The notes beneath the pieces are model-generated. The model had not been told where the DNA came from and did not search any database. It saw only the letters and a program-made list of their open reading frames with translations. The translations under genes were made by a program, and so were the position numbers. Source: Desulfurellales bacterium (GTDB lineage: Bacteria; Campylobacterota_A; Desulfurellia; Desulfurellales; Hippeaceae). Taken from it: a stretch of 35,051 nucleotides of DNA. The stretch is taken from NCBI GenBank assembly GCA_027064405.1, contig JAMOPP010000164.1:1-35051 (forward strand), in the 5' to 3' direction. Positions 2,608 through 29,495 of this stretch are shown here, one piece after another; positions within the stretch are counted from its first letter, which is position 1; each line of letters starts with the position of its first letter.

Positions 2608-3413
2608 ATTATTTTAACCTCTTCTTCCAACTCTACGGAAAATAGTTTAAATACATCATTCTTCATCTTGTCTATTAAAAAAAGTATATCATAAACTTCC
2701 GTTTCTTTCGAGCCTATTATGTAGTTTGCGTGTCTGTTTGATATTTTGGCACTGTTTTTGATGAAGCCTTTTAATTTAGCATCTTCTACTAACTTACCGG
2801 CATACGCATCTTTTGGATTTTTAAAAACACTGCCAAATGTGTTGTGTATGTGAGCATTTTTTACTCTTGTGCTTATATTTTTTTTTACTTTTAAAATAAG
2901 GTTTTGCCTATCATCTTTCTCATATTTAAATGCGGCTTCCGTAACGATTCCCTTAATTGAGGTTTTTCTGTAGGAAAAATTAATTTCATTGCAATATAAA
3001 GTTTTCACCCCACTGCCCTTTAGATATACTTTTGCATAAATCAGCTTATCTTTAATGGAATTTTGAAATGCGCCGGCATTCATAAAAACAGCTCCGCCTA
3101 TACTCAATGGAACCCCGTATAAAAAGTCCAAAGAGGAGATGGAATTGTTTATGCAAAATTGCATAATCTTAGACATTTTTGTAGCTGCACCTACAATAAG
3201 CATATCATTTTCTATTCTTATATAAGAAAATTTTTCTGAGAGTTTAAAAAGTTTTATAAAATTATCTTTAATTATTATATTACTTCCTCCGCCTATAAAG
3301 TAATCCTGTTCAACACTTGCTAAATCCTCCATTGATTCAACGATATTTAAATAGGAGTATCCCGATAAATGTATAGTTGTTAAATGCGATAGAGGTATTG
3401 TTTTAATTATCAT
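2604..3413 (-). CDS. murB: UDP-N-acetylenolpyruvoylglucosamine reductase
   Basis: 'FIGGGSNIIIKD', 'LYGVPLSIGGAVFMNAGAF', 'GSVFKNP', 'AGKLVEDAKLKGF', 'ISNRHANYI'. Confidence 0.95.
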   Translation of the reverse strand: MIIKTIPLSHLTTIHLSGYSYLNIVESMEDLASVEQDYFIGGGSNIIIKDNFIKLFKLSEKFSYIRIENDMLIVGAATKMSKIMQFCINNSISSLDFLYGVPLSIGGAVFMNAGAFQNSIKDKLIYAKVYLKGSGVKTLYCNEINFSYRKTSIKGIVTEAAFKYEKDDRQNLILKVKKNISTRVKNAHIHNTFGSVFKNPKDAYAGKLVEDAKLKGFIKNSAKISNRHANYIIGSKETEVYDILFLIDKMKNDVFKLFSVELEEEVKII

Positions 3414-4761
3414 TCACAAGTTTTTTTGCTATTTGAGATATACTGCCGGCTCCAAGAGCGGTCAGCACACCCTTGTTTTCAATCTGGTCTAAATGCTTCT
3501 TTAAAGATTCATAATTATTTATATATACGGCATTCCCGCTTACTTTGTTGATTTTTTCAGAAAGAGCAAGTGAATTAATTCCATCAATGGGCTCTTCTGA
3601 TGCAGAATACACATCGAGTACAAAAACTTTATCTATATTTTTAAAACTTTTGGAAAAGTCATCCATAAGATATGAAGTCCTTGAGAATCTATGGGGCTGA
3701 AATATTGCATAAACTTTATTAGATATAAGTTTTGCAGAGGAAATCGTTGCCTTAATCTCATTAGGATGATGTGCATAGTCGTCATAAACATCAAGATTGT
3801 TGTATTTCCCAAGATATGTAAACCTTCGATCAACACCCTTGAATTCAGCAAACGCTTTTCTTAAAACACTTTCTTTAATTCCTGACTCTTGTGCAATAGC
3901 ACATACAGCAAGTGCATTTGAAACATTATGAAGACCTATAACGCCAATTTCAATATTTTCTAAAATCCTATCACCTATTTTGACATCAAAGAAGCTTTTC
4001 ATATCCTTGACAGTGATATTATAAGCGTATATATCGGCTTTTTTCGATGTTATACTGTAAGTTATACAGTTCTTGTAATCATTTTTAATCTGTTTTATTA
4101 TAGGATCATCGAAATTTAGTATTTTTACTGATGAGCTTTCTATAAAGTCTCTAAACGCTATTTTTTCATTTTCAAAATTACCATAAAATCCGAGATGGTC
4201 ATTGTCTATATTGGTCACAACACCTATATGCGGATTAAGAAGCAAGAAACCTCCGTCGCTTTCATCTGCTTCGGCTATAAAATATTCACTTTCGCCTATC
4301 ATTACATTGTTGTTTATATTGCGCAGTTTTCCGCCCATTATTGCGGTTGGGTCTAATCCCGCTTCCTTAAAAAGTGACGCACAAAGGGAGGTTGTTGTTG
4401 TTTTTCCATGAGAACCTGCTATTGCAATCGACTTTTTTTCATTTATAATATGGGATAAGAGCTGATATCGTTTAATTACGGGTATATTTTTCTTTTGCGC
4501 ATAAATCAATTCTATATTATTGTCCCTAATTGCGGAAGAAGTAACCACCACATCTATATCATCTGTGATATTTTGTATGGAATGGCTTATATTTATCTTT
4601 AACCCTAAAGCCATAAGCTGCTTAACGGACGAATTCAGATTCAAGTCTGAGCCTGTAATAATTTTGCCCTTTGCATGCATATATTGGGCAATGGAACTCA
4701 TACCTATTCCGCCTATTCCTATAAAGTAAAATTTTTTTGCATTGTCAATTATGTGTTTCAT
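3403..4761 (-). CDS. murC: UDP-N-acetylmuramate--L-alanine ligase
   Basis: 'FYFIGIGGIGMSSIAQYMHAKG', 'AGSHGKTTTTSL', 'DDYAHHPNEIKATI', 'IFQPHRFSRT'. Confidence 0.97.
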   Translation of the reverse strand: MKHIIDNAKKFYFIGIGGIGMSSIAQYMHAKGKIITGSDLNLNSSVKQLMALGLKINISHSIQNITDDIDVVVTSSAIRDNNIELIYAQKKNIPVIKRYQLLSHIINEKKSIAIAGSHGKTTTTSLCASLFKEAGLDPTAIMGGKLRNINNNVMIGESEYFIAEADESDGGFLLLNPHIGVVTNIDNDHLGFYGNFENEKIAFRDFIESSSVKILNFDDPIIKQIKNDYKNCITYSITSKKADIYAYNITVKDMKSFFDVKIGDRILENIEIGVIGLHNVSNALAVCAIAQESGIKESVLRKAFAEFKGVDRRFTYLGKYNNLDVYDDYAHHPNEIKATISSAKLISNKVYAIFQPHRFSRTSYLMDDFSKSFKNIDKVFVLDVYSASEEPIDGINSLALSEKINKVSGNAVYINNYESLKKHLDQIENKGVLTALGAGSISQIAKKLVNDN

Positions 4762-4766
4762 ATTTT

Positions 4767-5375
4767 TTAATCCTTTAATATGCAGGCATCAATTTTTTGA
4801 CCTGATTCGCATATTTCTTCCGAAATGATTTTAACATTCTTTGGCATATTAGTTATTAATTGTTTATTGTTTATCAGAACAACTTTAACCATACTCCAAT
4901 CCTCTATTTTTTTCATTTCATCTTCATTGTCAAATTTTAATATAGGCGTAGTGCCAAGAAGTAAGGATGACAAAAGAATATCCTTTATCGTCTGTTTGTC
5001 AACATAAGATGTGTTAAAAATTACTCCGTCCATACCAAAGACTCTATGCAAAAATACTTGATAGTTTTCCAAAATTATATCTTCGGCAATTACTATAAGA
5101 TTGCTGTTTAACTGTTTAGACAGGGTAATATCATCCATTTCGGGGGTGTATTCTTTCTCTCTCATATCAATTATGACTGCGCTTTTTTCATTTTCTACAT
5201 TATAGAGTTCTTCTATATCTTTTATTCTATTAATAGATTTAATATCATTTCCAATTTCTTCATAGAGATCACACGGTTCTGCATATAGCATATTAAAATT
5301 TCTTTCCATAACAACCATCGGTATGTCTTGTTTCTTTTTTTCAATAAATTTTTCTTTTCTCTTCTTTAAATCCAC
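4767..5375 (-). CDS. Degenerate indole-3-glycerol-phosphate-synthase (TrpC)-like TIM-barrel protein, function unknown
   Basis: Segment 'LIVIAEDIILENYQVFLHRVFGMDGVIFNTSYVDKQTIKDILLSSLLLGTTPILKFDNEDEMKKIEDWSMVKVVLINNKQL' follows the IGPS pattern 'vLrKDFiiDeYQiyeAr.aGADAvLLI...L......L..A..LGm..LVEVHdeeEle.al..ga.iIGINNRdL', but with AED in place of RKD. GTG start overlaps the lgt stop (TAGTG). Confidence 0.6.
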   Translation of the reverse strand: MDLKKRKEKFIEKKKQDIPMVVMERNFNMLYAEPCDLYEEIGNDIKSINRIKDIEELYNVENEKSAVIIDMREKEYTPEMDDITLSKQLNSNLIVIAEDIILENYQVFLHRVFGMDGVIFNTSYVDKQTIKDILLSSLLLGTTPILKFDNEDEMKKIEDWSMVKVVLINNKQLITNMPKNVKIISEEICESGQKIDACILKD

Positions 5376-6148
5376 TATTGACTCCTTTTTTTGTATCTAA
5401 AAAATAAACCTATAATTGCTACTATTATCATACTTAAACATAACCACTGCCCCATTGTTAGCCCGTATATAAAACCTATTTGTATATCAGGTTCTCTCGT
5501 AAATTCTATAAAAAATCTAAATATTCCATACAATAAAATGAATGTATAAAATAAAAATCCTTCATATTTAATAAATTTATCACGACTGTAGAACATTATC
5601 AGAAACAAAAAAAAACCCTCAAACAGGGCTTCATAAATCTGGGAAGGATGTCTTGGTATATATCCCCCTGAAGGAAAAGCTACAGCCCAAGGAACATTAC
5701 TTGCCCTACCCCACAATTCATCGTTTATAAAATTTGCTATTCTGCCAAAAAAGAGCCCAACTGGAGCAATAACCACAGCTTCGTCAGCAAGCTGATAAAA
5801 ACCTATATTGTATTTCTTAGCCAATAAAAATCCTGCCACTACTACGCCTATCAATCCTCCGTGAAAACTCATTCCGCCTTTCCATATATATAACATTCTT
5901 ATCGGATTTTCAATATAATAAGAAAAATTATATATAAAAATATATCCTAATCTTCCACCTAAGATTACTCCGAAAACTATATACAAAAAAACATCATCTG
6001 TTAGGTATTTTTTGTTAAATTTTTGCAGTCTTTTTTTTAAATAAAAATAAGCTATTATAAAACTTAATGCATAGGCTACACCGTACCACCTTAAATGCAG
6101 AGAGCCTATGCTTAAAATATTCGGGCTTATGTTAGGGTACTTTAACAT
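5375..6148 (-). CDS. lgt: Phosphatidylglycerol--prolipoprotein diacylglyceryl transferase
   Basis: 'LRWYGVAYALSFI', 'GGRLGYIFIYN', 'IWKGGMSFHGGLIGVV', 'GRIANFINDELWGRAS', 'RHPSQIYEALFEG'. Confidence 0.97.
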   Translation of the reverse strand: MLKYPNISPNILSIGSLHLRWYGVAYALSFIIAYFYLKKRLQKFNKKYLTDDVFLYIVFGVILGGRLGYIFIYNFSYYIENPIRMLYIWKGGMSFHGGLIGVVVAGFLLAKKYNIGFYQLADEAVVIAPVGLFFGRIANFINDELWGRASNVPWAVAFPSGGYIPRHPSQIYEALFEGFFLFLIMFYSRDKFIKYEGFLFYTFILLYGIFRFFIEFTREPDIQIGFIYGLTMGQWLCLSMIIVAIIGLFFRYKKRSQ

Positions 6149-6914
6149 ACCTTTTAATTATGGGAAAGTATCCAAGCTTAAGTTGCCTTTTTATATTTAA
6201 AGACTCTTCTTTTGCAGCAGAATATCCACTTATAGGACCTACCATAACTCTGGTATATGTCTTGTTATTAACAACAACCTTTTTAGAATATGTTTTATGA
6301 CCGCATTTCCTAAGTTTTAATACATTTCTCAATGCCTGTGAACGATTAAGATTTGATGAAACCTGTATTACATACCTTCTAAGATGATGTACGGTTTTTT
6401 TGTGTAGCACTCTATGTTTTTTTGTTTTTGCAACAGTCGTCTTCTTGTGCTCTAAAACCTTTTTTACTTTGGGCTGAAATACATTATTATTGTTCTTGTA
6501 AGTGCTTTGACTACTCTCGTTGCCTTTATTATCAGAATAGGGATTTACTATTGTAGGCGTGCTTACCCCTTCGGATAAATTGTCTTTGGTATTATTTTTA
6601 TCCGAATTGTCAGACTGAATAGCATATGTCTTAATCTCTTCACTATTATTAGAGCCTAAATCTTCTGCACTATTTTGCAAATCATTGCTGTCAAATTGCG
6701 GATTACTTTGCTCCTCATCCGTATTCTTGCTCATTTGATTTAATGTTATTGCCGTATTTGTCTTCTTTGTACTCACTAATGAATTTATTATATATCCTGC
6801 CGCAATACCTACTATCAATATTATCGCAGATACTATAATAATTACTTTTGTACCTGATTTATTCTTCTGTTTTTGAAGAATTTCCTTAATTCTGTCTTTA
6901 TTGTTATCTTCCAT
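6132..6914 (-). CDS. Single-pass membrane protein with C-terminal SPOR domain
   Basis: TM 'VIIIVSAIILIVGIAAGYIINSLV', polar/low-complexity linker, C-terminal 'RRYVIQVSSNLNRSQALRNVLKLRKCGHKTYSKKVVVNNKTYTRVMVGPISGYSAAKEESLNIKRQL' fits the SPOR fold pattern. Confidence 0.85.
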   Translation of the reverse strand: MEDNNKDRIKEILQKQKNKSGTKVIIIVSAIILIVGIAAGYIINSLVSTKKTNTAITLNQMSKNTDEEQSNPQFDSNDLQNSAEDLGSNNSEEIKTYAIQSDNSDKNNTKDNLSEGVSTPTIVNPYSDNKGNESSQSTYKNNNNVFQPKVKKVLEHKKTTVAKTKKHRVLHKKTVHHLRRYVIQVSSNLNRSQALRNVLKLRKCGHKTYSKKVVVNNKTYTRVMVGPISGYSAAKEESLNIKRQLKLGYFPIIKRYVKVP

Positions 6915-13044: not shown

Positions 13045-14844
13045 TTAAGAATTATTCGCCTCAATAAGTTTGATAAATGCCTCTTTGGAAACCGCTACGC
13101 TCCCAATCTGTTTCATTCTTTTTTTACCCTTTTTTTGCTTCTCCAGCAGTTTTCTTTTCCTTGTGATGTCTCCGCCATAGCATTTTGCCAAAACATCTTT
13201 TCTTAATGCTCCAATCTGTTCTTTGGCTATTATTTTCCCGTTTATTTTTGCTTGAAGTCTAACTTCAAAAAGCTGTTTCGGTATATATTTTTTTAGGGTT
13301 TTAAGCACATCCCTTGCCATTCTGTACGCTTTTTCCTTTGGAACTATCATCGAGAAGGAGTCAACCTCTTTTGAATTTATCATTACTACAAGTTTTGTCA
13401 GGTCGGATTTCTTAAATCCCTCAAAATTGTAATCAAAAGAGGCGTATCCTTTTGACAACGACTTCAGTTTATCATAAAAATCGGTAATAACCTCCGAAAG
13501 AGGAATGGAGTATTTAATTAAAACTCTATCTTGAGAAATGTATGTCATATTTTTTTGATTGCCACGCTTATCCTGAAGAAGCCTTAGTATATTGCCTACA
13601 AATTCTGATGGTGTAATAATTTCAACAATAACAAAAGGTTCATATATACCGGATATCTTCTGTGGCTCAGGAAGTAACGAAGGATTGTATATATCAATGA
13701 CCTCGGAATTTGTTTTCTCAATCCTATATACAACACTTGGGCTTGTAGCAACTACATCCAGATTAAATTCATCTTCAATTCTTTCTTTTGTTATATTCAT
13801 ACTTAGAACGCCCAAAAATCCGCATCTAAATCCGAAACCGAGTGAGTCTGATTTCTCAGGCTCTATTGTTAACGACGCATCGTTGAGCTGAAGTTTTCCG
13901 AGTGCTTCTTTTAAATCTTCATATTTATCCGTATCGGTTGGATAAATACCTGCATAAACAAAGGGTTTAGGCTTTTTAAACCCCTCAAAGGCTTCTTCAC
14001 TTGGGTTATTTTCAAGGGTAATTGTATCGCCTATCAATGCATCTTTTATATTTTTAACATTTGCAATTACATATCCTACGCTTCCTACATCAAGTTTTTC
14101 TATAATTTTCTGCTTTGGTGTGTAAACACCGAGTTCTTCAACCTCAAACACTTTTCCATTTGACATAATCTTGATTTTATCCCCTCTTTTAAGGGAACCT
14201 TCAAAAATTCTTACGGCAAAAACAACTCCTCTGTAGTTGTCATACCAGGAATCTACAACAAGTGCTTTTAACCGAGCAGTGTCGTTTCCTTTAGGATACG
14301 GAATTCTTTTAACGATTGCCTCAAGTATGGTATCTATTCCTATATTTTGTTTTGCGGAAACTTTAAGTGCAGACGATGTGTCTATTCCAATAGCATCCTC
14401 AATCTCATGTTTAGTCTTTTCTATATCAGCTGAAGGTAAATCTATTTTATTAATAACCGGTATTATTTCAAGGTTGTGCTCTATTGCAAGATATGCATTT
14501 GCTATTGTCTGAGCTTCTACCCCCTGTGTTGCATCCACAACAAGCAGGCAGCCTTCGCAGGCAGATAGACTTCTTGAAACCTCGTATCCGAAATCAACAT
14601 GACCTGGTGTGTCTATCATATTCAAATAGTATTTTTCATTATTATGGGTATATTCTATTCTTACTGTTTGAGCCTTTACTGTAATTCCGTGTTTTCTTTC
14701 AACATCAAGACTGTCAAGCACCTGTTCCTTCATCTCTCTTTTGCTTAGTCCGCCTGTATTTTCTATAATTCTGTCTGCAATAGTGCTCTTTCCGTGATCT
14801 ATGTGTGCTATAATTGAAAAATTTCTTATATGTTTTGTATCCAT
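13045..14844 (-). CDS. lepA: Elongation factor 4 (LepA GTPase)
   Basis: 'NFSIIAHIDHGKSTIADRI', 'MIDTPGHVDFGYEVSRSL', 'NKIDLPSAD', 'LGFGFRCGFLGVLSMNI', C-terminal 'KCYGGDITRKRKLLEKQKKGKKRMKQIG'. Confidence 0.98.
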   Translation of the reverse strand: MDTKHIRNFSIIAHIDHGKSTIADRIIENTGGLSKREMKEQVLDSLDVERKHGITVKAQTVRIEYTHNNEKYYLNMIDTPGHVDFGYEVSRSLSACEGCLLVVDATQGVEAQTIANAYLAIEHNLEIIPVINKIDLPSADIEKTKHEIEDAIGIDTSSALKVSAKQNIGIDTILEAIVKRIPYPKGNDTARLKALVVDSWYDNYRGVVFAVRIFEGSLKRGDKIKIMSNGKVFEVEELGVYTPKQKIIEKLDVGSVGYVIANVKNIKDALIGDTITLENNPSEEAFEGFKKPKPFVYAGIYPTDTDKYEDLKEALGKLQLNDASLTIEPEKSDSLGFGFRCGFLGVLSMNITKERIEDEFNLDVVATSPSVVYRIEKTNSEVIDIYNPSLLPEPQKISGIYEPFVIVEIITPSEFVGNILRLLQDKRGNQKNMTYISQDRVLIKYSIPLSEVITDFYDKLKSLSKGYASFDYNFEGFKKSDLTKLVVMINSKEVDSFSMIVPKEKAYRMARDVLKTLKKYIPKQLFEVRLQAKINGKIIAKEQIGALRKDVLAKCYGGDITRKRKLLEKQKKGKKRMKQIGSVAVSKEAFIKLIEANNS

Positions 14845-15244
14845 TAAACCGCCATTTTTTTAAGTTTTAAAATAATATCCTGTTCCAAAATATAGCTTTC
14901 GTACCTCAATTTCTTAAATTGCAAAGAATCGTCTATATTTATCATCTTAAAGAGTTCTTCGAGAACCCTCAATGATTCTTCTATGCGTTTTAAATTAGCA
15001 TAAACAATATCTTCAATACTGTTTCTCACCTTTTCAATATTGCTGTTAATTGTTTTGCCTACATCATTTTTAGTATCTCTAAACAGTATAAAGTCGTTGT
15101 ATCTTTTTTGAATTAACGAAACTTCCGAGCGAATATTCTTAATTTTTCCCGATATCTCTTTATCGTCAAGTATAAATCTTGATATATCTTCGGCAACCCT
15201 TAGTCCTTCCCTTAATCGATTGAGATTTGCATCCGCTATTCTTT

Positions 15245-15269
<25 letters not shown>
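14844..15269 (-). CDS. thiD2: Stand-alone ThiD2-like protein (HMP-phosphate kinase type, related to the N-terminal extension of some ThiE proteins)
   Basis: 'RIADANLNRLREGLRVAEDISRFIL...IRSEVSLI...RDTKNDVGKTI...NLKRIEESLRVLEELFK': hallmark DANLNRxREGLRVxED and RxxESLRxLEE. No TMP synthase domain attached. Confidence 0.75.
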
Positions 15270-28592: not shown

Positions 28593-29495
28593 CTACAAGG
28601 CTTTTTCTATTCTTGTAATTAAATTTCCATTTTTAAATATTGTAACATCCCCTGTTGACTCTGAAACGACTACACTTATCGCATTTGTTAAAGCTGTAAT
28701 GGATGCGGCGGCAAGGTGTCGCGAACCCAAACCTTTCGGTATCTCTTCAGTAACAGCAGAAGATGTTGCTATAAACACTCCTGCGGATTCTACTACACCA
28801 TCTGCATCAATTAAAATAGCACCGTCAAGCAGACTAAACTCTTTCAATGTATCATCAAGATTAACCTTTAGTATATTCCTCTCGTCGGGATTGTATCCCT
28901 TAAAAGGGTTAAATATCATTTGCTTAACATTTTCCAACACCTTTTCTTTATCTCCAAGTATAAAAATGGCACCGATACTCTTTCCTTCTCTGCCCTGATT
29001 TGCAAGTTCAAGTGCTATTCTTAAAATTCTCTCAAAAACCTCAGGTTTAACCGATTTCTCCAAATCAATCTCACCCTTAAAACTAAGCAGCTCTTTTTCC
29101 TTTGATATATCTATAAAAATAGAAGTATCTATACTGTCTGAAACACCCGTTAATGCAATTAGATTTTCATCTTTTGACAACATACCGGATGACATACACA
29201 TCATTAATGCTATCTTTACCTTATTCATTCTGTTAAAATTTATGGAGGGAGCTACAATTAGATTTCCCAAGCTTTTGAGTTTCTCAAAAATTATCTTATC
29301 ATCCTCTTCTTTCTCCTCTTCTCTTATGATGATAATTTTTTTTACATCGTTATTTTTAACAAAATCTTCATCAAGATAGTCTTTTACATCATTGTAGTAA
29401 AATAAAACAGAGGTATTACCCTCAATACTCTTTGCCAATTCCAAAGAGTTCTGAAATATAAATTTAGCCACTCTTTTTGTCATCTTTTTTCTCAA
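28593..29495 (-). CDS. Diadenylate cyclase, DacZ/DisA_N-like C-terminal domain with a pyruvate-kinase-C-like N-terminal region
   Basis: 'LLDGAILIDADGVVESAGVFIA' (DGA motif) and 'IPKGLGSRHLAAASITALTNAISVVVSESTGDVTIFKNGNLI' (DisA_N/DAC core; RHL where RHR is canonical). Start may be 29495 or 29483. Confidence 0.82.
   Translation of the reverse strand: MRKKMTKRVAKFIFQNSLELAKSIEGNTSVLFYYNDVKDYLDEDFVKNNDVKKIIIIREEEKEEDDKIIFEKLKSLGNLIVAPSINFNRMNKVKIALMMCMSSGMLSKDENLIALTGVSDSIDTSIFIDISKEKELLSFKGEIDLEKSVKPEVFERILRIALELANQGREGKSIGAIFILGDKEKVLENVKQMIFNPFKGYNPDERNILKVNLDDTLKEFSLLDGAILIDADGVVESAGVFIATSSAVTEEIPKGLGSRHLAAASITALTNAISVVVSESTGDVTIFKNGNLITRIEKAL

Follow-up and report, generated by a model that had tools for sequence, protein, structure and literature searches.

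TrpC (IGPS), an enzyme that serves a single pathway, is a textbook model and is much favored as a scaffold for protein design. In C. jejuni, cj0498 is listed as trpC within a region linked to invasiveness, by a study (PMC5841378) that includes no functional work on TrpC. Pseudoenzymes as such are familiar; in the open-access literature that we searched, a scope that excludes most subscription journals, we found no description of a TrpC-derived pseudoenzyme or of one that arose repeatedly in place. Here, we describe by computation a degenerate TrpC, referred to as X, that is encoded next to genes of the cell envelope in a Desulfurellales bacterium.

The window, by which we mean the whole stretch of 35,051 nucleotides that was analyzed, carries X in a run of genes on one strand (Table 1). 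A preliminary description of this DNA had noted an open reading frame for a 202-aa protein between lgt and murC, coupled to the former by a TAGTG overlap, and no trp genes nearby. Both observations hold: the reading frame is real, its stop codon lies 5 nt from the ATG of murC, and no trp genes are present within the 35,051-nt window. Two other genes of the window are recorded for their own sake. One encodes a stand-alone ThiD2 of 141 aa, a domain frequently seen as a fusion with ThiE. The other encodes a protein carrying a DisA-type DAC domain in its C-terminal part, preceded by an unusual N-terminal part of ∼160 aa without a Pfam match; c-di-AMP synthesis by this second protein is possible.

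Table 1. Coordinates of X, its landmarks, and other genes in the 35,051-nt window
Feature	Position	Strand	Remarks
Degenerate TrpC (X)	4767..5375	minus	CDS, 202 aa, GTG start
TAGTG, start of X and stop of lgt	5373..5377	minus	One-base overlap; read from the sequence
alpha0 helices, N-terminal, residues 3-43	5247..5369	minus	With conserved P19...L...EP motif; best match is lgt-linked canonical TrpC
Glu98, at the IGPS catalytic Lys position (RKDF to AEDI)	5082..5084	minus	From alignment
D99-D116, best-kept block of X (beta3-alpha3-beta4)	5028..5081	minus	Y105, Q106, and D116 invariant among orthologs
Shortened C-terminal end of X, residues 180-202	4770..4838	minus	Strands 7 and 8 predicted; alpha7, alpha8, and phosphate-binding glycines gone
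lgt, upstream neighbor of X	5375..6148	minus	Ancestral order SPOR-lgt-TrpC/X-murC
murC, downstream neighbor of X	3403..4761	minus	Ancestral order
SPOR-domain protein gene	6132..6914	minus	Belongs to the conserved gene order
ThiD2, stand-alone	14844-15269	minus	PF17792, E 4.5e-39; thiamin-pathway domain
Protein with DisA-type DAC domain	28593-29495	minus	PF02457, E 1.2e-21

The IGPS-like signature of X that had been read from its sequence is supported by profile searches. X scored 24.2 bits against Pfam PF00218 (E 2.2e-5), below the curated cut-off of 27 bits, and reached E values down to 5e-7 against NCBIfam TrpC models, while its ortholog in D. acetivorans (53.9 bits, E 1.9e-14) and further orthologs exceeded the Pfam cut-off. 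Judged by these scores, the similarity to IGPS exceeds chance, being weak in the window protein and strong in the orthologs. In an AF2 model built from a 28-row alignment that included TrpC rows (pLDDT 88.5, pTM 0.86), X folds into alpha0 helices and eight strands, with alpha7 and alpha8 missing. The same elements were obtained from an alignment of orthologs only (pLDDT 78.7, pTM 0.78), which rules out that the barrel is an artefact of the TrpC rows. The PDB matches listed for both models were IGPS structures or designs on an IGPS scaffold, with best E values of 7e-7 to 9e-7. The structural comparison proposed in the preliminary description has returned a (beta/alpha)8 barrel with an N-terminal alpha0, minus alpha7 and alpha8, and X is predicted to be a shrunken, miniature eight-stranded IGPS (TrpC) barrel.

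Alignment to canonical TrpC showed that X lacks the AExK and SPS motifs, the RKDF lysine, the LVExH glutamate, the ExGI motif, and the phosphate glycines, and that it has lost the beta1-alpha1 and beta6-alpha6 loops. The earlier reading of the RKDF segment as AEDI, with AEIKRxSPS unrecognizable, is borne out in that Glu98 replaces the lysine and the AEIKxxSPS strand is absent. At nine catalytic positions, X orthologs keep 16% of the residues, with a range of 8-22% across X groups compared to 97-100% in canonical groups, and the phosphate-binding glycines of the beta7 and beta8 loops are kept at 0% in all X groups. Elsewhere in the same genome, on another contig, a canonical TrpC of 243 aa is encoded in a trpG-D-C-F-B cluster, and trpA is present as well; canonical TrpC is likewise found in most X-bearing relatives. 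Because the genome holds this intact trpG-D-C-F-B cluster and trpA, X is not needed for tryptophan synthesis. The suggestion that a TrpC-derived barrel had lost tryptophan chemistry thus stands on both counts, the missing residues and the genuine enzyme encoded elsewhere.

We further compared the surroundings of lgt across related genomes. Of the 18 further Desulfurellales genomes searched, 17 carry X, as does its own genome, and the order is SPOR-lgt-X-murC wherever the flanks were present. The exception is G008, whose assembly also lacks lgt; as lgt is missing from the G021 assembly too, the apparent loss of X in these two genomes was dismissed as uninformative. Two sister families at the class level have a complete canonical TrpC of 264-270 aa directly following lgt. 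The order is SPOR-lgt-TrpC-murC at two loci (L060 and L061) and SPOR-lgt-TrpC-TrpF at three (L070, L071, and L073). One sister-family genome (G023) encodes both an lgt-linked and an operon TrpC, each recognizable by Pfam, an arrangement that looks like an intermediate state. An HMM of the X family gave a median score of 60.5 bits for lgt-linked canonical TrpC versus 32.2 for the operon TrpC of the Desulfurellales, and the alpha0 motif of X is shared with lgt-linked TrpC only, the operon TrpC being without it. Since sister lineages have canonical TrpC at this very position, X is a native trpC that decayed where it stood. It is gene order and HMM scores, not the tree, that make the case for this native origin.

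The same decay was seen in Campylobacteria, where dead TrpC forms were found by profile search. In the genus that we take as Campylobacter, in which a close match to 6bma, the structure of C. jejuni TrpC, occurs, the locus TPR protein-TrpC-HIT-rhodanese carries, depending on the species, a canonical 258-aa, a dead 236-aa, or a dead 200-aa TrpC. In Campylobacter, TrpF was absent from each of the 22 checked genomes that have dead TrpC, and TrpA from all 14 checked among these, whereas both were present in the three genomes checked that have canonical TrpC. A lone trpB is mostly kept in Campylobacter with the 200-aa form (G135, G156, G259, and others, without TrpA and TrpF), which suggests indole salvage; trpB is missing from the six that carry the 236-aa type form. 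In the tree, the Campylobacter dead forms group with C. jejuni-like TrpC (support 99), and the alternative was rejected (AU p 0.0003). Helicobacter-like genera (family f45, a name that is inferred) have dead forms of 184-256 aa, mostly with a TrpCF fusion encoded elsewhere; where such a fusion stands alongside a dead native TrpC (L089, L123, L124, and L150), the native enzyme has been replaced by another TrpC. Long branches make the placement of these Helicobacter-like forms in the tree unstable; that they and the local canonical TrpC descend from a common ancestor is argued from shared neighbors, namely, TPR and/or Ppx/GppA genes found beside both in the same family. A canonical TrpC at the same locus, pointing to descent from an active enzyme, is found for X in the SPOR-lgt-TrpC-murC order and for the Campylobacter forms in equivalent pairs, and native TrpC has decayed in place at least three times, in Desulfurellales, Campylobacter, and Helicobacter-like genera.

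In Campylobacteria, dead TrpC lies in neighborhoods unlike that of X, after a TPR-protein gene or glyS. A TPR protein of ∼410-460 aa, similar to Cj0497, precedes native TrpC in most Campylobacteria (L126, L095, L119, L154, and others). It was ruled out as an obligate partner of X, as its gene is kept in all Campylobacteria genomes tested, including those without TrpC, and in genus g49 is separated from the dead TrpC.

Selection on the dead copies was assessed by Nei-Gojobori dN/dS in close pairs, where computable. All dead copies tested gave values of 0.05-0.21: 0.18 for X in Desulfurella and 0.15-0.21 in other Desulfurellales, 0.05-0.17 for the 200-aa and 0.14-0.17 for the 236-aa Campylobacter form, and 0.10-0.14 for the Helicobacter-like forms. 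No internal stops occur in the dead copies listed from the Desulfurellales and Campylobacteria searches. The low dN/dS indicates that these copies are selected proteins rather than pseudogenes or mere spacers; catalytic residues are lost while purifying selection continues, as in a pseudoenzyme.

In ordinary TrpC comparisons, the best-conserved segments are beta1 (50%), beta2 (57%), and beta6 (59%) and the least conserved are alpha0 (19%) and alpha2 (23%). Between the 200-aa Campylobacter form and C. jejuni-like TrpC, identity is 53% in alpha0, 52% in alpha2, 70% in alpha3-beta4, 58% in alpha4, and 57% in alpha5 but only 11% in beta1, 6% in beta2, 11% in beta6, 9% in beta7, and 0% in beta8. 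Conservation in these alignments is inverted, with the active-site strands lost and the outer helices kept. A set of 12 positions (GRSL, P, R, YQ, E, Y, and D), chosen after the alignment had been seen, is kept at 93-100% in dead forms of Campylobacteria and at 83% in the canonical TrpC of the same group, compared with 51% in X of the Desulfurellales and 45% in TrpC from other phyla; because of how this set was picked, the segment identities are the fairer evidence. The inverted pattern is weaker in Desulfurellales because X is more divergent there, and the kept positions could in part reflect a requirement of the fold rather than an interface.

Several other readings of X were weighed. The shared fold would allow X to be an active, highly divergent IGPS, but with the catalytic residues and phosphate glycines lost and a genuine TrpC present, we give this practically no chance. 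Hardly more credible is an ORF that acts purely as a cis element coupling lgt and murC translation, with an idle protein product. The one-base overlap with lgt and the 5-nt gap to murC would suit such a device, but amino-acid constraint in Desulfurellales and Campylobacter pairs and the retention of dead TrpC in unrelated gene contexts speak against it. The preliminary description had the barrel inserted into an envelope gene run; such an insertion, of a duplicated operon TrpC, is permitted by the tree alone, since among these very divergent rows descent of X from operon TrpC was not rejected (AU p 0.43). It is nevertheless very improbable, as two sister families carry canonical TrpC in exactly this slot and X scores far better against lgt-linked TrpC than against operon TrpC lacking the alpha0 motif. 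The survey of lgt neighborhoods proposed there did find X co-conserved in its slot; what it did not find is a move into an envelope gene run, the slot being ancestral for TrpC. Because the location is ancestral, the envelope neighbors are weak evidence for an envelope role, and a function tied to lgt or murC was set aside as unsupported.

Readings in which the protein itself has a task merit more attention. X might be a regulatory subunit of tryptophan synthesis, e.g., an allosteric partner of genuine TrpC, TrpF, or TrpB, as X-bearing Desulfurellales have the pathway and trpB persists by itself in most Campylobacter that carry the 200-aa form. This is quite unlikely, however, given that Campylobacter with dead TrpC keep the gene under selection with neither TrpF (22/22) nor TrpA (14/14 checked) and that trpB, too, is gone from the six genomes carrying the 236-aa type form. 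TIM barrels often change function, and X could be an enzyme or ligand-binding protein with a different chemistry in a remodeled barrel mouth; a mouth is still predicted in the AF2 model, and Asp99, Tyr105, and Gln106 are invariant among Desulfurellales orthologs. In every X group, however, conservation is lowest in the strand ends and loops that make up the mouth, beta7, beta8, and the phosphate site are reduced, and the X-group alignments contain no new conserved polar set at the strand ends, so that we regard a new chemistry as unlikely, if the best placed of these alternatives.

We favor the reading that X is an in-place-decayed native trpC, a pseudoenzyme kept for a noncatalytic, most likely protein-binding task, and put its probability at about 0.65. 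X would be the vertically inherited native trpC of Desulfurellales, its place between lgt and murC being older than the order itself. The chemistry would have passed to another, shorter TrpC in a trp operon, after which X would have shed its catalytic residues, phosphate site, beta1-alpha1 and beta6-alpha6 loops, and alpha7 and alpha8. The resulting mini barrel, presumably incapable of making indole-3-glycerol phosphate, would be kept by purifying selection for a noncatalytic task, most likely the binding of a partner protein through the outer helices (alpha0 and alpha2-alpha5). Within this account, the homology, the decay in place, the loss of catalytic residues, the selection, the predicted barrel, and the recurrence in Campylobacter and Helicobacter-like lineages are shown by computation. 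We infer this binding as the retained task, and likewise that it may already have existed in the active enzyme and may be one and the same in all lineages. Of the roles suggested in the preliminary description (regulator, scaffold, or new enzyme), a noncatalytic one is reasonable; placement in the envelope run is a poor clue to it.

Because the same decay arose separately in Campylobacter and Helicobacter-like bacteria, TrpC probably has a second, nonenzymatic job. In its fuller form, which we propose tentatively and at somewhat less than even odds, TrpC of the Campylobacterota type would be bifunctional: the outer helices (alpha0 with its GRSLA motif and alpha2-alpha5) would carry a conserved noncatalytic role, and at least three times the active site would have been shed once the chemistry was lost or moved, the protein persisting for that role. 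Profile searches gave no match in G276, in G113 and other g94 genomes, in G146 and other g102 genomes, or in G184; because the gene has been lost altogether there, the task of X is dispensable in some lineages.

Retention of dead TrpC time and again, even in Campylobacter species without the pathway, would mean that a second function has been overlooked in a widespread bacterial group. The Campylobacter locus provides a natural series of one gene before, during, and after catalysis was lost, at 258, 236, and 200 aa, which makes the question of which surface matters directly testable. Compared with canonical TrpC, X has a homologous barrel with alpha0, a recognizable beta3-alpha3-beta4 core block, and an inherited genome position, but it is ∼60 residues shorter, is without the catalytic Lys and Glu, SPS, ESG, and the phosphate glycines, and is dispensable for the tryptophan pathway. 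The TrpC of C. jejuni (PDB 6bma) and its degenerate relatives in other Campylobacter are similar to the Desulfurellales case in that a native TrpC lies away from the trp operon and that, in related species without the pathway, its locus carries a dead ORF of 200 or 236 aa; they differ in their neighbors, a TPR-protein gene and a HIT gene, and in having decayed independently. With bacterial pseudoenzymes in general, X shares an enzyme fold, the loss of catalytic residues, and purifying selection, and it stands apart from them in that its type of change recurred in place in several lineages.
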